Shown: positions 17,939 through 61,784 of the stretch, piece by piece
How positions within the stretch are numbered: the stretch's first letter is position 1
Layout of the letters: the number at the start of each line of letters is the position of its first letter
Assembly: GCF_008831285.2 (NCBI RefSeq)
Contig: NC_045147.1
Span: forward strand, 20,464,581-20,528,580
Origin: Nymphaea colorata
Taxonomy: Eukaryota > Streptophyta > Magnoliopsida > Nymphaeales > Nymphaeaceae
DNA: 64,000 nucleotides
Reading direction: 5' to 3'
Translations under genes and position numbers: made by a program
The notes under the pieces: generated by a model
What the model was told of the DNA's origin: nothing
What the model saw: only the letters and a program-made list of their open reading frames with translations
Database searches by the model: none

Positions 17939-18883
17939 CTGAATTAGATGGATAGCATGAATCAAGGATTGCAGTTAGTAAAATTGAAATCAATGTGGGA
18001 AAAAGAGATTAATTGAACAACAAAATTAACTCCAGCAATTAGATGTAATGGCACAAACAACATAAAAAAGTCCACTTCACTATTTTTGTCAACTGACAAG
18101 GATCTTTATATATAAAAGGGAAACTCTTCATCCACTTGTACATTTTTATGGTACAGTAATATAAGGAGATATTTACACGTTACTAGTTTGTGATTCGCCT
18201 TTGCTTCAAAGAAGCTTTTTGCTCTGTAAAGAGTAAATATCTACCAAGAATAACCATCGTACATATACATAGATATGTACATAAAGGGAGAGAGAGAGTA
18301 AACCCCAGGTTTCGGTAATCCACAAATTGAAAAGATGATCCAAAGTGTCAGAACAACTTAGTTCCAAGTACATTTCTACCTTCCACTGACATTCAACACT
18401 TTTTCTATTTCCTATGAATTAGTTATGGCACACCTGAATATTCGGGAATAGCAATAAAATTATAAATGGAGAAGAACCAAAACCATGCAAAAGTGATCAC
18501 TTCTGTGTCATTTGATGTTTACCTACCAATTGTGCTAATTTCATCATCATTGGAAACTACAAATGGTAAGCAATTCAGGACAGGCAACATTCATCATATT
18601 TCAAGAGTAAAATGTGATAAGACGTACATATGCTTGCATTTTCTGAATTCATATTCTATTTTGCTTTCTGTCATCTTCATGGGTCCAGATCTAATCATGG
18701 TTCTTTCAGAGTGAGAACAATCCCTCAACTTTTCACTCTCAAATGACCAATTCTTGGAAAAGCTTCTATCAAATTAAACAGCTAAACCAAGAATCAACGA
18801 AATTGATGTATCAACATATATCCATAACAAAGCAGAATAAAAAAGGATGGAATAAAGAAAGCTTGTAGACAAAGTAACTATAC

Positions 18884-19172
18884 CGGAACACTCCAATGGA
18901 GAACCGCCCACATGACCATGTGCATTGAAGAACTCCTTCAACACCATCTCCTTGCAATTTTTTCATGCTTCAAACACCACTTCCTGCATGATTTCAATTT
19001 TCAAACGTCCATCACAGACTTGAAAGAATTTCCCTCCCTCAAATATCACCCAATATAATGACCTGTTACTTGGCCCATGTAAGCGGGTTCATCAAAAAGC
19101 GGCAAGACTTTAGCTGCGTTCAAAAAGATCAGATATGCCAAGGATGGGCTTGCATCCAGTAGCTCTACAAAT
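18884..19172 (-). pseudogene. probable MCM9 fragment (exons 2-3), unit A1
   Basis: Two exon-like blocks lie in order on the minus strand. 19070-19172 encodes FVELLDASPSLAYLIFLNAA...LPLFDE, and 18884-18983 encodes EVVFEAW...KEFLHAHGHVGGSPLECSG. Plant MCM9 has the pattern FAELxDxDxSLAxLIF...LPLFDEAA followed by KEFxHVRxxVSGSPLECPE near its N terminus, so this replication-helicase relative is the best match. In this unit TGG has become TGA in the second block (GAAGCATGA). The donor at 19,069 is intact. The identification is from memory of the family and is moderately sure. Confidence 0.55.
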
Positions 19173-19596
19173 CTACAAGCAGGAAAATGATTGATCACTA
19201 GAACAAATAAGATTTTTGGCCTTGGCCCATACCATGTAATATAACTAAGTGGGCCAAAATGTCCAATCATTAGCTGCAGTAATATCAATGTGGTACCATA
19301 TTCGAACACAAGATAATTTGCAAAGTCATAATTTTTCAGAAAAAGGTAAGCCAAAGGAGTTGGCTAACTAACAGGATCCATGTGCACATAACTCAACTGT
19401 GTAGCAGCAGGTTGCTGCTAAACTCAAATGGAATCACTATCTTTGGCTCTATTTCTCATTTTTACTGACTTCTTTATTCTAATTGTTACCATTATATTCA
19501 TATTTTTCCACAGTTTCGCAATTTTTTCCATCAAAAGTTTGACTTATACTTTAAGGTCAAGAACATATGGGATCTTGCAAATGCAAACACTCAAAT

Positions 19597-19599
<3 letters not shown>

Positions 19600-19634
<35 letters not shown>
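19600..19634. repeat. (GA)n microsatellite
   Basis: About 17 GA units at this point; the matching places in A2 (23,083-23,102) and B (47,104-47,122) have about 9-10. It lies just before the clathrin fragment and is the most length-variable site between the units. Confidence 0.95.
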
Positions 19635-19638
<4 letters not shown>

Positions 19639-19643
19639 ATTAC

Positions 19644-19770
19644 CTCTTCTCGACTTATCTACAAGGGTCTCAACATGAAGAAAAGAAGAAACCAAGAGTA
19701 TAAGGCCTTTGATAAAATCTTCAGGACACTCATCGTCTAAAAGCTTGCCAACAACTGAAGGAGATTTGCA
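19644..19770 (-). pseudogene. Clathrin heavy chain exon fragment, unit A1
   Basis: The minus strand reads [20 protein letters not shown] and then a degenerate version of SVRSLLPVEPLVDECEKR ending at an AGAG|GTAA donor. [16 protein letters not shown] is diagnostic for the clathrin heavy chain, the leg of the vesicle-coat triskelion. The second half is altered ([18 protein letters not shown]) and no neighbouring clathrin exons are visible. It is an isolated captured or duplicated exon. Copies: 23,109 and 47,130. Confidence 0.85.
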
Positions 19771-19788
19771 GGATTGACCACTCATCAA

Positions 19789-19790
<2 letters not shown>

Positions 19791-19819
<29 letters not shown>
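19791..19819. repeat. (AT)n microsatellite
   Basis: About 14 AT units. In A2 and B the same place is only ATATATAT inside a small palindrome AAGAATATATATATTCTT (about 23,254 and 47,275), so the array expanded in A1 or contracted in the others. Confidence 0.9.
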
Positions 19820-19822
<3 letters not shown>

Positions 19823-20606
19823 CAACACAACCGAAACTTAAATGCAAAAGCACATGCCAACTGAAAGAATGTATGCATAATACTCTAGGGAGAATAAAAG
19901 CAGGGCTAATAGACAAGCCATTGCTAAGTAGCCACATGTTGGTCCATTCATTGGCACATAAGCATGACAACAGCCTCATCTATAGAGCTCTAATTTGGCC
20001 CCCAGTGCCTACAAAGAGTTGGATGAACTTCATGTACATCCAAAATGCCAATGATTTATGATTAGGCAAAACAAGACATTTGACAACCATAGCCTACAAT
20101 AACGAGATTCCTACAAAGCTTGCTTTTAATCCTGTGAACAACCAAATCTAGTAAACTCTAGGAGGATAGCCTCATCTTATGTTCCCCAAGGGACAGATTT
20201 CAGATTTATTGGAAACAAGCTTGTAGTTGTTTCGTTGAAATAAAAAGATCAAGTAAAGAAAAAATAAGAAAAACACACTCTCTCTATGCCCATGAAATCT
20301 ACACAAGAAAGTAAAATGCCCACCATGGCAAAGACAAATCACCCCTCCATTCACACATGTAAGTTCTAGTCCATGCATTGCCTCCCATTCCGGATCTAAT
20401 CATGGTCCTTTCAGAGTGAGAACAATCCCTCTACTTTTCACTCTCAAATGACCAATTCTTGGAAAAGCTTCTATCAAATTAAACAGCCAAACCAAGAATC
20501 AACGAAATTGATGTATCAACATATATCCATAACAAAGCATAATAAAAAAGGATAGAATAAAGAAAGCTTGTAGAGAAAGTAACTATACCGGAACACTCCA
20601 ATGGAG

Positions 20607-21161
20607 TGTAAAGTCAGAATGTTGGCACAACCCACAGAACAAAAATAATCAGATTAGACGTGAGAACAAGGCAGCAGCAGGGTCAGCTTCATCATCATCT
20701 GGATCTAATGTTTCAGCAGACGTACAACAACTCCTCATGACAGCCCTGTCTAAGCTTCATTTGAAACAAAACGAGCAAGGAGAATGGTATGTGGACTCTG
20801 GAGCAGCAGCCCATGTTACTGGTGACGCAGGTAATCTCTCTAGTGCTCTCCCTTATTTAGATAAAGGCTCAGTTGTCACGGGAGATGGTTCCCATCACAC
20901 AATATCACACATTGGAAATGTACAAATTTCTATGGGCTCTTCTTCGATTCCATTAAAGAATGTTCTTGTTGTTCCAAGTGTCCAGAAAAATATTATTTCA
21001 GTGTCCAAGCTTATTGATGATACTCAATCCTCTGTTGAATTCACACCCTCTTCTGTTTATGTTAAGGCTGCTCCCTTTCCTCCATCGTCTTCTTTCATCC
21101 TCTCTTCTCAACATATCTGTTTTGCATACGGAGAGACGAGTACTTTGTGAAGATTCTTACA
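20607..21161 (+). repeat. 5' LTR of the copia derivative
   Basis: 555 bp, TGTAAAGTC to GATTCTTACA. It contains a 137-codon ORF (20737-21150) that is only the repeated protease part of the gag-pro frame and has no start signal of its own. The last 95 bp (from about 21,067) do not look like protease and probably are the original R-U5. Confidence 0.9.
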
Positions 21162-21174
21162 TGGTATCAGAGCC
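21162..21174 (+). other. primer-binding site, initiator tRNA-Met
   Basis: TGGTATCAGAGCC directly follows the terminal CA of the 5' LTR. This is the usual plant copia site, complementary to the 3' end of initiator methionine tRNA. Confidence 0.9.
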
Positions 21175-21381
21175 AGGTTGCATCGTCCTCCGGTGAGTGA
21201 TTTCAGTTTGATGTGATTAGCCCTAATCTGCCCTAAATTCTTTCTTTTCTAGCGTGATCATCCCTCTTTTCAGTTTCTGCCCTAAATCTTGCGTGATTTG
21301 CCCTAATTGATTTGCCCTAATCGTTGTGCCCTAATCTTCTCATCGTTTTGCCCTAATTTTTGTCGTTGCCCTAAATCAATT

Positions 21382-22818
21382 ATGGATCAGCCGACCCCCT
21401 CTCTTCTATCTTCCAGCTTTCTCTCCCAACTTATTTCACAAAAGCTGAATCATAGTAACTATTTGACTTGGAAACGTCAAATAGTCCCTTTTATCAAAAG
21501 TCATAGACTCTACGGGCATATCGATGGGACCACTCCAGCACCTCCTATGTATATTGACCGTGAAGTGAAGAAAACCGTAGTGGGAGATCAAGCTGCTGGG
21601 GCTGCGGCTATGAGTGAAATCAGATTTGAATATGAAACCATTACTGAAAATAATCCTGAGTATGAAGCTTGGCTGGCTCACGACCAGTCTCTTGTTGCCT
21701 ATATTACTTCTACTTTGTCAGAGGAAGTATTAGGAGGTATTGATGATGATTTAACAGCCCTAGAGTTGTGGTCTACCCTTGCCACCACGTATTCTCAAGT
21801 ATCCGAAGCACGTTTTCTGCAGTTAAGAAGGCAATTTCAGGACATCAAGCGTGGGACGCGTACTGTTTTGGAATATTTGAATGAAATTAAAAGTGTAAGT
21901 GATCAACTTGCTGCCATTGGACATCCCGTCAGCGACAAGGACAAAGTGCAACAAGCCTTGAGTGGACTGGGAACAGATTTTGATATGTTTTGCACAGCCT
22001 TGGAAGTCCTACCTATTCTTCCATCTTTCGAAGATCTCAAGGCTAAGTTATTCCAACACGAAGCTAGTCGTGTTCAGCGACAGAATTTGATTCCTTCCAA
22101 CAGTCACAATGTACTGATCACAGGGACACATGCATTGCAAGGGAATCGCACTCGTACTTGGATTCCTCAGGCAGGAATGGGAAGAGGGATTCTCCCAACA
22201 CCACAGGGCATGAATACTACATCTGCCACATCTAGAAGGGTTCCGACTTGTTTCTATTGCAACAAGAGGGGGCATGTAAAGTCAGAATGTCGGCACAACC
22301 CACAGAACAAAAATAATCAGATTAGACGTGAGAACAAGGCAGCAGCAGGGTCAGCTTCATCATCATCTGGATCTAATGTTTCAGCAGACGTACAACAACT
22401 CCTCATGACAGCCCTGTCTAAGCTTCATTTGAAACAAAACGAGCAAGGAGAATGGTATGTGGACTCTGGAGCAGCAGCCCATGTTACTGGTGACGCAGGT
22501 AATCTCTCTAGTGCTCTCCCTTATTTAGATAAAGGCTCAGTTGTCACGGGAGATGGTTCCCATCACACAATATCACACATTGGAAATGTACAAATTTCTA
22601 TGGGCTCTTCTTCGATTCCATTAAAGAATGTTCTTGTTGTTCCAAGTGTCCAGAAAAATATTATTTCAGTGTCCAAGCTTATTGATGATACTCAATCCTC
22701 TGTTGAATTCACACACTCTTCTGTTTATGTTAAGGCTGCTCCCTTTCCTCCATCGTCTTCTTTCATCCTCTCTTCTCAACATATATGTTTTGCATACGGA
22801 GAGACGAGTACTTTGTGA
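21382..22818 (+). CDS. copia Gag-protease polyprotein, truncated, runs into 3' LTR
   Basis: One open frame of 478 codons starts at MDQPTPSLL, chosen because copia Gag commonly begins just before a ...LNxxNYLTWK motif, here LNHSNYLTWK. An in-frame ATG at 21,307 lies in the leader and is less likely. Order: Gag capsid-like region (residues 1 to about 260, with the DUF4219/UBN2-type LWxxLxxxY signature as LWSTLATTY), CCHC zinc knuckle (C290, C293, H298, C303), then aspartic protease with catalytic WYVDSGAAAHVTG (D361). After KLIDDTQSSVEF the frame leaves protease sequence, reads 28 unrelated codons and stops. The frame crosses into the 3' LTR at the zinc knuckle, so the second half of the protein is LTR-encoded. 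The frame is free of stops, which fits a recent insertion. Confidence 0.9.
   Translation: MDQPTPSLLSSSFLSQLISQKLNHSNYLTWKRQIVPFIKSHRLYGHIDGTTPAPPMYIDREVKKTVVGDQAAGAAAMSEIRFEYETITENNPEYEAWLAHDQSLVAYITSTLSEEVLGGIDDDLTALELWSTLATTYSQVSEARFLQLRRQFQDIKRGTRTVLEYLNEIKSVSDQLAAIGHPVSDKDKVQQALSGLGTDFDMFCTALEVLPILPSFEDLKAKLFQHEASRVQRQNLIPSNSHNVLITGTHALQGNRTRTWIPQAGMGRGILPTPQGMNTTSATSRRVPTCFYCNKRGHVKSECRHNPQNKNNQIRRENKAAAGSASSSSGSNVSADVQQLLMTALSKLHLKQNEQGEWYVDSGAAAHVTGDAGNLSSALPYLDKGSVVTGDGSHHTISHIGNVQISMGSSSIPLKNVLVVPSVQKNIISVSKLIDDTQSSVEFTHSSVYVKAAPFPPSSSFILSSQHICFAYGETSTL
22264..22272 (+). promoter_or_regulatory. purine run acting as cryptic polypurine tract
   Basis: AAGAGGGGG, followed by CA, lies immediately before the 3' LTR start at 22,275 and encodes the Lys-Arg-Gly of the zinc knuckle. 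A purine run in this place is what primes plus-strand DNA in LTR elements. Its role here is inferred from position. Confidence 0.6.
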
Positions 22819-22829
22819 AGATTCTTACA
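22275..22829 (+). repeat. 3' LTR of the copia derivative
   Basis: 555 bp, same length and ends as the 5' LTR, with three visible base differences. Its first base lies inside the codons for Gly-His-Val of the zinc knuckle. Confidence 0.9.
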
Positions 22830-23108
22830 TGGAGAACCACCCACATGACCATGTGCATGCAAGAACTCCTTCAACACCATCTCCTTGCAACTTTTCCATG
22901 CTTCAAACACCACTTCCTGCATGATTTCAATTTCCAAACGTCCATCACAGACTTGAAAGAATTTCCCTCCCGCAAATATCACCCAATATAATGACCTGTT
23001 ACCCGGGCCATGTAAGCGGGTTCATCAAAAAGCGGCAAGATTTTAGCTGGGTTGATCTTGCAAATGTAAACATTCAAATATTGAGAGAGAGAGAGAGAGA
23101 AGAATTAC

Positions 23109-23236
23109 CTCTTCTCGACTTACCTACAAGGGTCTTAACATGAAGAAAAGAAGAAACCAAGAGTATAAGGCCTTTGATAAAATCTTCAGGACACTCATCG
23201 TCTAAAAGCTTGCCAACAACTGAAGGAGCATTTGCA
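23109..23236 (-). pseudogene. Clathrin heavy chain exon fragment, unit A2
   Basis: Same [15 protein letters not shown] block as at 19,644, with the donor at 23,108 kept. Upstream the sequence reads GCATTTGCAGG instead of GATTTGCAGG. Nearly identical to 47,130-47,257. Confidence 0.8.
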
Positions 23237-24012
23237 GGATTCACCACCCATCAAGAATATATATATTCTTGATCAACTGAAACTTACATGCAACAGCACA
23301 TGCCAACTGAAAGAATGTATGCATAATACTCTAGGGAGACTAAAAGCAGGGCTAATAGACAAGCCATTGCTAAGTAGCCACATGTTGGTCCATTCATTGG
23401 CACATTCAAGCCTGACAACAGCCTCATCTATAGAGCTCTAATTTGGCCCCCAGTGCCTACAAAGAGTTGGATGAACTTCATGTACATCCAAAATGCCAAT
23501 GATTTATGATTAGGCAAAACAAGACATTTGACAACCATATCCTACAATAACGAGATTCCTACAAAGATTGCTTTTAAACCTGTGAACAACCAAATCTAGT
23601 AAACTCTTGGAGGATAGCCTCATCTTATGTTCCCCAAGGGACAGATTTATTGGAAACAAGCTTGCAGTTGTTTCGTTGAAATAAAAAGATCAAGTAAAGA
23701 AAAAATAAGAAAAACACACTCTCTCTATGCCCATGAAATCTACACAACATGCCCACCATGGCAAAGGCAAATCACCCCCCCCCCCGTTCACACATGTAAG
23801 TTATAGTCCATGCATTGCCTCCCATTCCGAAGCAAGTACAGCTTCCAGTAACATAAACCAGTTCTTTGCAAATAGATAATTGGTGTTATCCCCAAGTTCT
23901 TTCATTTGGAAAAGAAACGTACTAAATCATTATGCAGGCAGTTTTTTGCAAAATAGACAAACTTCCCTTTGTAAACGCACAGAGCATTTGGTTGTCATTT
24001 CAACTGTCTTAC

Positions 24013-31921: not shown

Positions 31922-34900
31922 CCGGACAACGGCTGCTTGGGGGTTAGGCCCCCATCCTTTTATTTCAACAAAATAAGAGGTATATACAACAAAAATTGAT
32001 CCAGAAGGACCTCATCATCTATGATTGGTTTCTTTAAGTGGATCCCACATGTCATCTGTGGGATTCCATCTGGTATACATGCCATTGTCCGGAATGGACA
32101 TCAAAAGGTTGGTGGCTTCAGCGAGAGGCCATCTCCTGCAAAAAACAATCCTATTGAGAAGACTGCTGAACATAGAGTTAGTGTCAGTGTTGCGCCTGCC
32201 TGTTAGGGTACTGCGGAATTGCTGCTTCCAATCGCCACTATTGGCCAGTATATAGATACGCCCTTGATTATCTTCTAAGTTAACCAGGTACCCGATGCAT
32301 TCCATAAGTATCTCGGTCTCCCACCATTCAGACATGTTGCCAAACCAGCAAGCTAGACCGTGGCGAAACCGGCCGGCTGTGTCTCTAATGAGGCCTGCGA
32401 CCCCTTTTCTACCAGCCATAAACAGGGAGGTAATGCTGATTTCCACCCATGTATCTGCTCGGTTTGCTCCATTGCTCCACAAGATCCCTGTGCATAACCA
32501 GTTTTGAGTTTTAACTCATTGCGATATAATCCATTGATACGTCCACCAATGATCGCAGCAGTGTGACCAGAAAATTTTGGCCACATTGCCTATAGGAATA
32601 TCTCCTCTATGCTTAAACTGGTTGCGCATTTTCCAAATGAATCAAATCCCCAAATGGAAACTGTCTTTCCAGCATTTATCCAAGGTTTTGTCTTTGAAGC
32701 CTTGCTTGTGCCACCTGATGAGTCCTTGCTTTAAGAATTGAGGGCTCCAATGCCATGGAGCAGTACGCCCAAACTTGCCATAGATGCAAGCCCAAATGGG
32801 TCTAGCACCCTTGCATTCAAAAAAAAGGTGTGAAATATCTTCACTCGCTTGCTTGCAAACATAACACCTTGATGCTAGATGACCACCTTGCTTTTTCACT
32901 AACTCATCCGTTGGAAGACGGTCAGCACAGCCTAAGTACACCGCACAGCCTAAGTACACCACCCAGGCGGCCCTTGGGAGTCGTCTTCCTTTCCACACTA
33001 GCATATTATCGATGGACTCATTGCCTTTCTTACGTATTCGTTGCCATATGTCGCGCCTGGTGATCTCCCCTTTATTATCATTCCTCCATGTAAGAACATC
33101 CGGCTGTTCCACCTGAATCGTAGGCAAAGAGGCAAGAATATTAAGACCGGTAAGGAAGCCTCTTATGTACTCCCCGTTCGTCTCAATGATCTCTTTGACT
33201 GAACACGGGATACAGTTTTGGACGAGATGAAGGTGAGATATGGGAATCTTGTCTATCAGTCGATCAACCCCCCAATGATCTGTCCAGAATTTTGCCAAGG
33301 CACCATTCCCTATTTTCCAAACGACTTGCTCTTTCACCTTGCTCCATGACCGCAACGCCATACGCCGCTCTGGACACCCTTTTTCTCCTCACACTACTGT
33401 CAAGCAGTCCCTTGCGCTCATAGTATCGCCCTTTGACAAGGGTAGCCCAAGGGGAGGCCTGCTGCGACACTAAAAAAGCCATGTTGGCCATATTAGTTTC
33501 CTTGATATCTCTGAGGCCCTCTAACTTAGGGAGGCAGAGAGTTGACCACTTCATGTGATGGTAATTTTTACCGTCTGCCATATCTCCCCACAGAAAATCA
33601 GTTGCCATTTTGTTCAATTGTTTGCAAGTTGCCGGAAGATTAGCAACTAGGCTCCAATAGCTAGGCATTGCGGAGAGAACATGTTTGATTAAACACAGAC
33701 GGCCTGCAAACGAGAGACATTTTTGTTTCCAGAGTGCAAGCTTTTGGGAGGACCGAAGGATTAGCTGTCTGCATTGCACCTTTGTCAAGGCATTCGTCTG
33801 AAGGGGAATACCAAGATAGGTGGTGGGGAGGGCCCCTTGACGCCAGCCCATTTCATGCTCAATGAGATTTAACACTTGACTGTCCATATTGAATGGGAGG
33901 ATTGTACTTTTGGCAGTATTCATAACCAAGCCAGAGCAGGAGGCGAACTGGAGGCGAACTCATCTAGACACACTTTTAAATGGCGCAAGTTTTAAAATAA
34001 TATCGCATTCACGGTATTCCAATTGGACTGGAAGAAATTATTACCAAACCCATCTGGGCCGGTGCCTCCATTACTGCCCACTAAATTTCTTCTGTAGTGA
34101 TAGGTTTCAATAGGTCAGCATTCTCCTCTAGAGACACGGTAGGGGCTAGGGCGAGAGAATGCGGTAGGCACCCATCACCTTGAACATTCGCTAAAAGATC
34201 GACAAAGAAGTCCGTGCAAGCTGAGAATATATCAGGCAGGTCTGTTAGGAGCTGACCCCCATGGGAGATAATGTCGATCTTGTTCCTCCTTCGCCTCCCA
34301 TTAGCGATTCCTTGGAAGAATTTGGTGTTGAGGTCTCCATCCTTGATCCATTTGATTCTGGATTTTTGGCACCGGCCACTTTCAATCTGAGACTGTAGGT
34401 ATTTAAGTTTAGATTTGATATCCGCAATATGGGGGGATAGATCATTGGCTGCACCTTTGCACCACATCTTTAACTTGTCCCTGGTGGTAGATAAACCCCA
34501 AAAACAACAAAAGTTTGACCTGTTGAGGGGATATAAAACTGGGCGACAATCCAATGGGGATGAGCATACCAGTTTTGGAGAGTCACTACCGTCGGATCCC
34601 AGAGGCCAAAGGCCAATGATGCGCGCCGAAAGATGGATGTTGGAGATTTGACAATAGTTTGGAATCTTGAACTAAACTTCTGAAGCTGTTCCGCGTTAAG
34701 CTTGGAATCAATAGCAAAAGCAATGGAAGACTTAGTAGACCTAAGAGTACTTAAGAACTCATGTTGGGCTGGAGTAACGTTCCAAGATAGGATCTTCATG
34801 GGCAAGGAGTTTCATGCCCCATCCTTACTTCTCTGACCGTTGTAATGGTAGAGAAGTCATCAGCCTTGTCCCCTGCCATCCCCTCAGGGAGGCTTCCATG

Positions 34901-57344: not shown

Positions 57345-60300
57345 CCGGACAACGGCTGCTTGGGGGTTAGGCCCCCATCCTTTTATTTCAACAAAATAAG
57401 AGGTATATACAACAAAAATTGGTCCAGAAGGACCTCATCATCTATGATTGGTTTCTTTAAGTGGATCCCACATGTCATCTATGGGATTCCATCTGGTATA
57501 CATGCCATTGTCCGGAATGGACATCAAAAGGTTGGTGGCTTCAACGAGAGGCCATCTCCTGCAAAAAACAATCCTATTGAGAAGACTGCTGAACATAGAG
57601 TTAGTGTCAGTGTTGCGCCTGCCTGTTAGGGTACTGCGGAATTGCTGCTTCCAATCGCCACTATTGGCCAGTATATAGATACGCCCTTGATTATCTTCTC
57701 AGTTAACCAGGTACCCGATGCATTCCATAAGTATCTCGGTCTCCCACCATTCAGACATGTTGCCAAACCAGCAAGCTAGACCGTGGCGAAACCGGCCCGC
57801 TGTGTCTCTAATGAGGCCTGCGACCCCTTTTCTACCAGCCATAAACAGGGAGGTAATGCTGATTTCCACCCATGTATCTGCTCGGTTTGCTCCATTGCTC
57901 CACAAGATCCCTGTGCATAACCAGTTTTGTTCCATTGATACGTCCACCAATGATCGCAGCAGTGTGACCAGAAAATTTTGGCCACATTGCCTATAGGAAT
58001 ATCTCCGCTATGCTTAAACTGGTTGCGCGTTTTCCAAATGAACCAAATCCCCAAATGGAAACTGTCTTTCCAGCATTTATCCAAGGTTTTGTCTTTGAAG
58101 CCTTGCTTGTGCCACCTGATGAGTCCTTGCTTTAAGAATTGAGGGCTCCAATGCCATGGAGCAGTACGCCCAAACTTGCCATAGATGCAAGCCCAAATGG
58201 GTCTAGCACCCTTGCATTCAAAAAAAAGGTGTGAAATATCTTCACTCGCTTGCTTGCAAACATAACACCTTGGTTCTTTATTTTGGAAAACATGAACAAT
58301 TTCCTGGCTGAGAAGAAAGCTGTCTTGGATGCATCTTCCCTGTAGGAAGGCACTTTGATTATTGGATATGATCCTGTTGAGGATTGGCCGCATGCGCTGG
58401 ACCATGATCCTGGTAATAAATTTCATCGTGCTAGTACAGAGGGATATAGGGCGAAATTTGTCCAACTGCTTAGCTCCTTGCTCCTTGGCAGCAAGATGAT
58501 GTGAGTCCTGTTAATGGATTTAACCAGCTTGCCGGAATGAAAAAACCCAGTGATAGCCGCAGAAACGGCCTCCTTCACAGTATTCCAATTGGACTGGAAG
58601 AAATTATTACCAAACCCATCTGGGCCCGACGCGGAATCCTTATCTGCCTCCATTACTGCCCACTGAATTTCTTCTGTAGTGATAGGTTTCAATAGGTCAG
58701 CATTCTCCTCTAGAGACACAGTAGGGCCTGGAGCGAGAGAATGCGGTAGGCACCCATCACCCTGAACATTCGCTAAAAGATGAAAAGAAGTCTGTGCAAG
58801 CTTAGAATATATCAGGCATGTTTGTTAGGAGCTGACCCCATGGGAGATAATGTCGATCTTGTTCCTTCGCCTCCATTAGCGATTCCTTGGAAGAATTTGG
58901 TGTTGAGGTCTCCATCCTTGATCCATTTGATTCTGGATTTTTGGCGCCAAAGGCGTTCTTCTAGGTGCAGGAGCACCGAAAGTTGTCGCTTGAGGTTGCA
59001 CTCTTCCTCTATCGCCTGAAAGTGGCCACTTTCAATCTGAGATTGTAGGTATTTAAGTTTAGATTTGATATCGGCAATATAGGGGGATAGATCATTGGCT
59101 CCACCTTTGCACCACATCTTTAACTTGTCCCTGGTGGCCTCTAGTTTGTAAATGAGTTTAATCATTGCGCAGCCTCTAATGTCCACTGTCCATGCAGAAT
59201 CAACTTGGTTTTTGTACCCTGCCATGTTCATCCAGTATTGAAAATGCCGAAATGGGGTACGTCCCCAAGTTGAGTACCTACGCTTTGAAATGCAGAGCAT
59301 CAGATATTGTCCTAGGGAGCACTTCCAATTGCAGCAACAATTCTGGATCGTCCACCCATTCTTTGGAAACATAACATCGATCTTCTTGGACATCACATTA
59401 TCTTTGCCCACCTGGTTAGTCCAAGTGAATTTCTTATCTTGGCAAGAAACTTCAGTTAACGCCGATGAGGTGACAAAGTTTGATAAGGCAATGCAGGCGT
59501 AGAGTGGCGGGGCCCTCCTAGTTTTTTCATTGCTGTTTAGCACTGCGTTAAAGTCGCCCATACATATAATAGCCTCACTGCACCGGTTCAAAGTATCAAG
59601 AAGGATAGGGAACATGGTCTTCCTTATTCTAAAATCAGTGTGTATAAACCCCAAAAACAACAAAAGTTTGACCAGTTGAGGGGATATAAAACTGGGCGAC
59701 AATCCAATGGGGATGAGCATACCAGTTTTGGAGAGTCACTACCGTCGGATCCCAGAGGCCAATGATGCGCGCCTAGGGTCCCGAAAGATGGATGTTGGAG
59801 ATTTGACAATAGTCTGGAATCTTGAACCGAAACTTCTGAAGCTGTTCCGCGTTAAGCTTGGAATCAATAGCAAAAGCAATGGAAGACTTAGTAGACCTAA
59901 GAGTACTTAAGAACTCATGTTGGGCTGGAGTAGAGGCCAGCCCGCGGACGTTCCAAGATAGGATCTTCATGGGCAAGGAGTTTCATGCCCCATCCTTACT
60001 TCTCTCGAAACCCATTTCCATGTCCTCAAAGGAAGGACCCTCCTGTTGGCCCTGGACTAACCCTGCCATAGTTAGGTTCTCATCCTCTTTAGTCCTCCTT
60101 TCGACCGTCTCAGAATTGTCACTCACGGTGGGAGGACTGGTTCGCTTCTTGGCTCCAACAACTTCCTTATGCTTGAGTGTTCTTTTCTTGGCCTTGTCAG
60201 CCAATTGGGCATTGATGGGAGATTTCATGGATTTAGAATGACTCCTTGTATCGGGTAAAGCCTGAGAGGGTCCCTGTATGCTTTCGCTTTCCAATTGCAT

Positions 60301-61784
60301 TGGGTTTTGTTGATGTATGCTTTCGCTTTCCAATTGCATTGGGTTTTGTTGAGGACCTGTCGCGCCCTTACTTCTACTCTGTATGTCTTGTGTGCCTGAA
60401 CGATTACCATCTGTTTCAGATTCCTTTCCTCAACCTCTGTCCCCTCCACCATATTTGAGAGAGCTTCAAACTTGTTGTGTTCCGGGTGAGAGTCTGGTTT
60501 TCCTTTAAAGGATTGGGATCCTCTTGGGAGTTCTAACTTGTTGCAGGCATTAAGGGTGCTCTTGTCCCCTTCCTTGGGAGCCTCTTTCATCATGCAGGAG
60601 CCATCAAAGTGGGTCATCAAAGTGGGTTGTGGATCCACATTTATGACAGTACTTGACCTTAGTTTCGTATTCAATAGATTGAACAAAAGTTTTACCACCT
60701 GTTACTTCTAGTTCAATTTCTCTTCTAGTTCAATTTCTGGTGTTGGCCTAAACCCAAGCGGGATGTCGATTTTTACGCGGGCAAAACCAAACCGGTGGAG
60801 GTGCCTAGTATATTCGTCAGCTTCCACGAATGTACCACCTATTAAATCAGCAATATCCGTGAACACCCGAGGATTCCACCATTCCACTGGCAGGTTCAGG
60901 CAAGCGAATCCAAATTCGGACACGATTGGAACTCTCAATCCGCATAGGCATTCCAGGATGCCATTGGTTAGCAATAAGCAGTCTTCCTCCCACAAACCAT
61001 CGATCAGGCGACAAAATGAATTTCAAATTAGCTTCAGAAGTTGTGCGGAGAAGGAACATACCTTTCCCAACGGAGGTGAACTTAAGGTCTGTGATACCAG
61101 GCCATAAGCTGCGAAGGCCCGCAAAGATGAAGCTATAGTCGAGCCGACCTTTCCCAGCCCCTCCCACTAGAGTTGCTATGGCGCTGAAGCGGAACGGCTG
61201 GCATATGACTTCATATGATTGTTGAGAGATAACCAGGCGTTTCTTCTTTGCCACCTCTTTCTTCTCCAGCGGGGGCATGTTCATCTCTGTCTGGAGGCTA
61301 TCTCCATCCACAATATCCGCCCACCATTTCCCCATTTTCGGACTGGAAGGAGAAGGCAGATCCTTACCTCTAGCAGCACCATCTTCACTATCACCCAAAA
61401 TCATGGGTTCTCCGCTTTCAGCTGGTTCTCCCATCCTCGGGAGCGTCTGCTGGGCCAGAGGCCCACTGCAGCCAGCAACTCCTCCTTCCAACGTTTCAGG
61501 GTCGCCTCTGCCCTGTCTTTGCCTTGAGCCCCCTATGGAGGATATCACCCATTCAGAAAGTTTATCCGACAGCTTTACCTTTGCTCCTTGCAATCCTCCA
61601 GCAGCACCATCTGCAGTACCACCCTCATCCATGGGTTCTCCGCTTACATCTGGTTCTCCCATCTTCGGGGGCGTCTGCTGGGCCAGAGGCCCACTGCGGC
61701 CGGCAGCTGCCCCCTCCAACGTATCAAGATCGCCTCTGCCCTAGGAGAGAGAACGTTTCTCGAAAAGGGTTTACCTCTTCTGAG
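57345..61784 (-). mobile_element. L1-type LINE, copy B, internally deleted
   Basis: Same insertion as 31,922-36,456, with target duplication ATGATGCATGCTATT at 57330-57344 and 61785-61799. ORF1 runs 61,719-60,847, then shifts frame into the zf-CCHC_4-like LPVEWWNPRVFTDIADLIGG. ORF2 starts at ATG 59,976 (MPMKILSWNVRGL, endonuclease motif). The endonuclease is kept (ICMGDFNAVL near 59,560), as are RT fingers (SGPDGFGNNFF, NQSAFLQGR) at 58,720-58,280. Then a deletion joins HVFQNKEP to the zf-RVT finger, removing palm, catalytic Asp and thumb. RNase H-like end at about 57,900-57,780. It has a 39-bp tandem duplication (QNPMQLESESI) near 60,310. It is dead. Confidence 0.9.

Follow-up and report, generated by a model that had tools for sequence, protein, structure and literature searches.

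During normal reverse transcription of elements with long terminal repeats (LTRs), the first DNA is copied from the tRNA site to the 5' end of the RNA and then moves to the 3' R. Deletions attributed to strand-transfer errors in retroviruses were reportedly described by Pulsinelli and Temin in 1991. The TR-GAG elements, which are short non-autonomous LTR elements encoding Gag, are multicopy and have ordinary non-coding LTRs. Sabot and Schulman (2007; PMC1950507) infer one aberrant reverse transcription for complex template-switch insertions from the target duplication and the highly similar outer LTRs. Strand transfer is also the explanation given in PMC9278108 for asymmetric LTRs of human immunodeficiency virus 1 (HIV-1), of which one is intact and one deleted; polypurine-primer biology is treated in PMC3185511. 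This report concerns a 2,223-bp derivative element at 20607–22829 of a 64,000-nucleotide stretch of Nymphaea colorata DNA (contig NC_045147.1), referred to as the window, whose coordinates are used throughout. The element is probably one integrated product that arose when a young, multicopy Copia element was reverse transcribed aberrantly, the first strand jumping to the protease region and a coding mimic of the polypurine tract priming the plus strand.

The derivative resembles the TR-GAG elements in being a short non-autonomous LTR element that encodes Gag, and differs from them in being single-copy with coding-derived LTRs. It is a variation on strand-transfer errors of known kinds, and the traces of the event are unusually complete. 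As in the retroviral cases of PMC9278108, aberrant transfer in reverse transcription would account for deletions beside the LTRs; in contrast to them, the same new sequence is found in both LTRs, which needs an ectopic plus-strand primer. The complexes presented in PMC1950507 fuse two elements and keep normal LTRs together with a third, internal one, whereas in the derivative the LTR itself is rebuilt. No description of coding sequence becoming both LTRs was found among the retroelement papers listed, which is weak evidence of novelty, the subscription literature, especially the older work on retrovirus vectors, being mostly outside that search.

LTR comparison, profile searches (Pfam) and shuffles were made within the window. 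The 2,223-bp unit has two 555-bp terminal repeats on the plus strand, the 5' LTR at 20607–21161 and the 3' LTR at 22275–22829, which are identical at 552 of 555 positions with zero gaps; both start with TGTAAAG and end with CTTACA. The target-site duplication TGGAG flanks them at 20602–20606 and 22830–22834. Directly 3' of the 5' LTR lies the primer binding site TGGTATCAGAGC (21162–21173, plus strand), which we take to be of the initiator-tRNA-Met type and which occurs only once in the window at ≤ 1 mismatch. Such a pattern is weak alone, at least one match being found in 16 of 100 shuffles, but it gains weight because the parents (four copies printed) hold the primer site at the same place, directly 3' of their 5' LTR. 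An open gag-protease frame of 478 codons (21382–22815, plus strand; stop TGA at 22816–22818) runs into the 3' LTR and matches the Pfam models Retrotran_gag_2, the copia type of gag (2.2e-24), and Pol_BBD, a protease-region model (1.4e-15); pol is absent. The CCHC zinc knuckle (residues 289–305, 22246–22296, plus strand) scores slightly below the Pfam cut-off for zf-CCHC, and the 3' LTR begins inside it. The polypurine tract before the 3' LTR, AAGAGGGGGCA followed by TG, lies within gag codons, while the native tract of the parents reads GAGGGGAGC followed by TG. Near-identical TG...CA repeats, a 5-bp target duplication, a primer site and a polypurine tract are thus all present. The original prediction had taken the repeats for LTRs on most of these marks, and the figure of 552/555, the TGGAG duplication and the empty paralogous site described below confirm it.

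The parental family was sought with the 555-bp LTR as the query against the assembly of the same genome (407.8 Mb in 783 contigs, possibly incomplete). Forty of 731 candidate places were scored, so that all counts of relatives are lower bounds. Among these 40, only the derivative's own two LTRs match over the full 555 bp; the other 38 match LTR positions 1–467 only. All 38 were fetched, together with five longer stretches. In 31 of the 38 copies, two LTRs can be aligned over the whole 275-bp parent LTR (TGTTAG...CTTACA), although in one of the 31, L043, the LTRs measure only 256 bp. Exact 5-bp target duplications flank 30 of the 31, and 18 have identical LTR pairs; a nineteenth pair shows zero mismatches but a 19-base gap. 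Twenty of the 31 are 5,075–5,077 bp long. The 1,573 nucleotides of the derivative from the primer site to the protease motif VYVK align at full length and without gaps in 23 of the 38 copies. In the derivative, the end segment of the parent LTR, 96 bp long, comes directly after them. The closest fetched copies, L018 and L021, differ from it at 5 of 1,656 positions; at 4 of these 5, the derivative is unlike every fetched copy that covers the place.

The full-length copia parent that the original prediction proposed to look for therefore exists: at least 38 close relatives are present, 31 of them with two LTRs of about 275 bp. The derivative shares with this Ty1/copia-type element (about 5.08 kb) the primer site, the leader, gag, the start of the protease region, the last 96 bp of the LTR and the 5-bp duplication. 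It differs in having nothing after the protease region, no native polypurine tract and no LTR positions 1–179, and in its LTR of 555 bp, which is mostly coding-derived. At the protein level, the closest named sequences among the 80 proteins retrieved are from Nymphaea. No relatives were found in viral contigs, whether by protein or by the pattern of LTR and primer site, or in the genome contigs searched by protein. Two fetched copies are themselves irregular. L041 lacks an internal stretch of about 0.9 kb, and a microhomology of a few bases is seen at the join, while both LTRs and the 5-bp target duplication are intact; L034 has a 5' LTR without about positions 58–158 and a 3' LTR of full length.

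The make-up of the new LTR follows from comparison with these copies. In the 5' LTR, the stretch 20607–21065 (plus strand), now in the place of U3, is derived from coding sequence, zinc knuckle to protease, and at least 38 other places in the genome match LTR positions 1–467 at 98–100%; the zinc-knuckle and protease origin is confirmed in the parents. The 96 bp with which the parent LTR ends follow at 21066–21161 in the 5' LTR and at 22734–22829 in the 3' LTR (both plus strand). That most of the LTR is gag-protease coding sequence, followed by the end of the parent LTR, agrees with the original prediction, whose extent for the parent part is here corrected to 96 bp. In principle, the derivative could instead be an ordinary member of a family whose normal LTR holds gag-protease sequence, and LTRs that overlap coding sequence are known from HIV nef and from sag of mouse mammary tumour virus (MMTV). 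Against this, the protease sequence runs on past the position of the join in all 38 fetched relatives, the LTRs are about 275 bp in the 31 in which two were found, and no further full 555-bp LTR match occurs among the 40 scored places. A parent LTR that already contains the whole 555 bp, which was named beforehand as the finding that would speak against the proposal, was accordingly not encountered, and this explanation is considered very improbable.

The join between the coding part and the LTR part can be read base by base. The protease sequence at the join is TTTATGTCAAGGATGCTCGAA, the parent LTR reads GTTAAGCCGGCTGCTCCC, and the derivative reads TTTATGTTAAGGCTGCTCCC; the junction block GTTAAGGCTGCTC lies at 22729–22741 (plus strand), with its 5' copy at 21061–21073. 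VYVK or a near variant occurs in 23 of the 80 proteins and is followed by D in 22 of the 23; in the derivative, foreign residues follow VYVK, and the breakpoint is thereby located. Protease GGATGCTC and LTR GGCTGCTC agree at 7 of 8 positions within a wider shared block, GTxAAG...GxTGCTC, and GGxTGCTC is common to the coding part and the parent-LTR part at the join. The site used is the only one of 1,626 gag-pro 8-mers that matches GGCTGCTC at 7 or more of 8 positions (2 of 4,518 in the whole 4.5-kb interior). The join thus falls at matching donor and acceptor sequence, as in strand-transfer errors. In a pattern search of the whole assembly allowing up to 2 mismatches, no other close copy of the junction was found outside the derivative's own LTRs, and none was present among the 40 scored places. 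The same search gave two hits with 2 mismatches, C14:8192905 and C14:8197953, with the variants GTTATGGCTGC and GTTACGGCTGC; they are 5,048 bases apart and are probably the LTRs of one diverged copy.

The sequence at the breakpoint also bears on the possibility that a spliced gag-protease subgenomic RNA served as the template, as in BARE1 and the Arabidopsis Ty1/copia elements. Plant Copia elements do make such RNAs, as PMC3735527 and PMC8892269 indicate. However, 37 of the 38 parents read GTCAAGGATGCTCG (AAG/GATG) at the breakpoint, and because the join has no GT donor, splicing is very improbable as the source.

The start of the new LTR resembles that of the native one. In the parents, the native polypurine tract AACTTGAGGGGAGC precedes TGTTAG; at the coding site, AACAAGAGGGGGCA precedes TGTAAAG. 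The cryptic tract AAGAGGGGG (22264–22272, plus strand) has the arrangement GAGGGG-N3-TGT, the same as the native tract. L018 has precisely two GAGGGG in its 4.5-kb interior, one belonging to the native tract and one to the cryptic site, and in each case TGT follows after three bases. Shuffled by dinucleotides 2,000 times, the 1,573 nucleotides from the primer site to VYVK contained GAGGGG-N3-TGT in 6 cases; a looser motif, nine purines with TGTA within 2 bases, was present in 140 of 5,000 codon shuffles of gag-pro. Within 21162–22334, AAGAGGGGG is the sole run of at least 7 purines followed by TG within 3 bases. The earlier suggestion that zinc-knuckle codons served as the plus-strand primer therefore gains support, since AAGAGGGGG closely mimics the native tract with equal spacing to TG. 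Exact copies of the new LTR start number 59 in the genome, and 58 of them stand in coding context (four with a one-base variant of the tract); the exception is the 5' LTR of the derivative.

The KR spelling in the zinc knuckle may be what allows the polypurine mimic. At the protein level, the zinc knuckles of Nymphaea thermarum read CNKKGHVK in P0002, P0003 and P0006 and CNKRGHVK, like the derivative, in P0010–P0012.

The insertion site is preserved in an empty state. The locus lies in a head-to-tail duplication of about 1.7 kb, with units at approximately 18684–20388 and 20389–23829 that are 93–99% identical in ungapped blocks of at least 100 bp, and the element is present in the second unit only. 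When the element and one TGGAG are removed from the second unit and the flanks are aligned to the paralogue over 437 bp, the upstream unit (18684–19120) is identical at 418 of 437 positions and gap-free across the insertion point, with a single copy of TGGAG. It follows from this gap-free empty paralogue that the 2,223-bp unit arrived whole, in an integrase-type event, in one of the two copies. Moreover, the junction is shared by the two LTRs, and the unit as a whole stands between the copies of the target duplication, so that the coding stretch must have become an LTR before integration.

These observations also speak to the notion that the direct repeats go back to a genomic rearrangement after insertion, in which a normal Copia copy underwent tandem duplication, gene conversion or recombination; in its favour, the locus itself sits within a tandem duplication. 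However, the outer limits of the repeats coincide exactly with the target duplication of 5 bp and show the TG and CA of integrase-type ends, the same junction is found in both repeats, and the paralogue holds an intact empty site; such an origin is extremely improbable. As a specific candidate, local tandem duplication of the gag-protease sequence is contradicted by the intact empty site. The first duplication unit also carries about 450 bp (19121–19570) that are missing from the second.

On this evidence, we infer the following order of events. Minus-strand synthesis from the tRNA site would have copied about 96 nucleotides of the LTR. Rather than transfer to the 3' R, the growing strand would have paired anew with the protease region by way of the imperfect match between GGCTGCTC and GGATGCTC, where a predicted hairpin in the template at the switch point might favour pausing, and would have been extended through protease, gag and the primer site. 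The native polypurine tract would thus have been left out of the minus strand. A minus strand without it requires a different plus-strand primer, which the coding look-alike fits: after putative RNase H cleavage at the mimic, the zinc-knuckle codons AAGAGGGGG would have primed the plus strand. The second strand transfer would have put the protease sequence joined to the LTR end at both ends, giving the 555-bp LTR. Integrase would then have accepted the new end, because it begins with TGT and the old end finishes with ACA, and would have made the 5-bp target duplication in one copy of the tandem duplication.

The main rival to a jump of the first strand is a template that was already deleted, either a genomic copy or an RNA in which the protease was fused to the 3' LTR at about position 180, without the native polypurine tract and U3, the cryptic tract then being used. 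It was in this form, as an RNA already lacking the tract and U3, that the original prediction cast the event. The product would be identical with such a template, and the parent family does show deletions of the microhomology type (L041); the deleted RNA may also have left no genomic copy, or the copy may have disappeared or be missing from the assembly. However, apart from the derivative's two LTRs, no genomic copy with the junction was found at ≤ 2 mismatches in the assembly, or among the 40 scored places. Furthermore, if the parent transcript starts upstream of LTR position 180, the normal strong-stop DNA would end in about 100 nucleotides unmatched in the deleted template and would presumably not be extendable. 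The deleted template is not needed either, since a misdirected first-strand transfer from normal RNA suffices, and it is regarded as unlikely, though it deserves more weight than the other alternatives.

For the first-strand jump, the strong-stop DNA could have been either complete or incomplete, depending on the ends of the parent transcript. By eye, the parent LTR has TATA-like motifs, TATATCC near position 48 and the AT-rich TTTAATTAAAG near position 140. With the former, transcription would begin near 80 and the jump would be premature, while the latter would allow a start near 180, in which case the strong-stop would be complete. A promoter scan of bacterial type is uninformative for a plant.

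Besides this ambiguity, several observations weigh against the proposed jump and priming. One insertion cannot establish the order of events. A longer purine run at 22179–22189, with no TG after it, was left unused. The hairpin predicted at the jump point is no stabler than shuffled sequence, 22 of 200 shuffles being as stable for a 24-mer, 57 of 200 for 35 nucleotides and 59 of 200 for 181 nucleotides. TATGTTAAGGATGCTCG is found at 27 other places in the genome; the 5 of these that were read are only 76–81% similar. Finally, none of the 38 close copies has, at the corresponding protease position, the T seen at 21063 and 22731 within GTTAAG; no other base among the first 460 of the 5' LTR departs from nine-tenths or more of the 38 copies. 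As it stands a few bases from the join, this T probably belongs to the same event, and may be either a misincorporation by reverse transcriptase during the switch or a base that came from the GTTAAG of the LTR with three bases lost. A parent LTR variant without the three bases CCG, which would account for both the T and the C of the junction, was seen in none of the 66 LTR sequences tabulated and nowhere in the genome within 1 mismatch. The join and the T are present in both LTRs and must therefore be older than the integration.

The insertion appears recent. All three differences between the LTRs can be assigned to the 3' LTR: at the two in coding sequence, the 3' LTR is unlike all 38 fetched copies and the 5' LTR is not, and at the third the base of the 5' LTR is that of the four printed parents. 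With a substitution rate of 1.3 × 10-8 per site per year, 3 differences in 555 bp correspond roughly to 0.2 million years, and the gag-protease frame is still open. The missing LTR positions 1–179 include the TATA-like motifs seen by eye, and therefore the promoter has probably been lost with them. The junction was found nowhere else in the possibly incomplete assembly of 783 contigs, so that no family was founded there, and the single insertion found does not amount to a multicopy family mobilised in trans. The original prediction that a non-autonomous family is born in one step is thus not borne out, the junction having been found in only one insertion, which has lost LTR positions 1–179; the copies with the same 555-bp LTRs that it expected at other loci did not appear among the 40 scored of the 731 candidates.

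LTR replacement is rarely caught in the act. Here, the parent, the product, the join, the primer mimic and the empty site are all in one genome, and the insertion is young enough to be read base by base. The derivative indicates that coding sequence can turn into an integration-competent LTR end within one replication cycle, and that integrase accepts a new U3 end which shares TGT with the old one. In the parent family, the plus-strand primer may be recognised for the most part by GAGGGG set a constant number of bases from TG. The product is limited, in that it is without most of the parent LTR and probably the promoter, and no further copy was found. A caution follows for LTR dating and for LTR-annotation pipelines, because an 'LTR' may be coding sequence.

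More broadly, Copia families with a polypurine look-alike in gag might repeatedly turn gag-protease sequence into LTRs by misdirected first-strand transfer. The resulting elements would be able to integrate and would have LTRs without a counterpart in any autonomous element. To our knowledge, the LTRs of many non-autonomous plant elements are indeed of this kind, and if the idea were true, such neo-LTR formation would explain in general where orphan-LTR non-autonomous elements come from. It is, however, doubtful as a generality, and all 58 other exact copies of the cryptic start in the Nymphaea colorata genome, which are still in coding context, count against it.

Elsewhere in the window, a Pfam scan found no host-gene domain in the open reading frames (ORFs) beside the insertion. 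Five minus-strand ORFs at 32642–33929 and 57776–61719 look by eye like pieces of LINE-type elements, in part through a likeness to reverse transcriptase. Three of the LINE-like ORFs were scanned with Pfam: that at 33264–33929 gave no domain, that at 58812–59720 gave an endonuclease below the cut-off, and that at 60847–61719 gave DUF4283.

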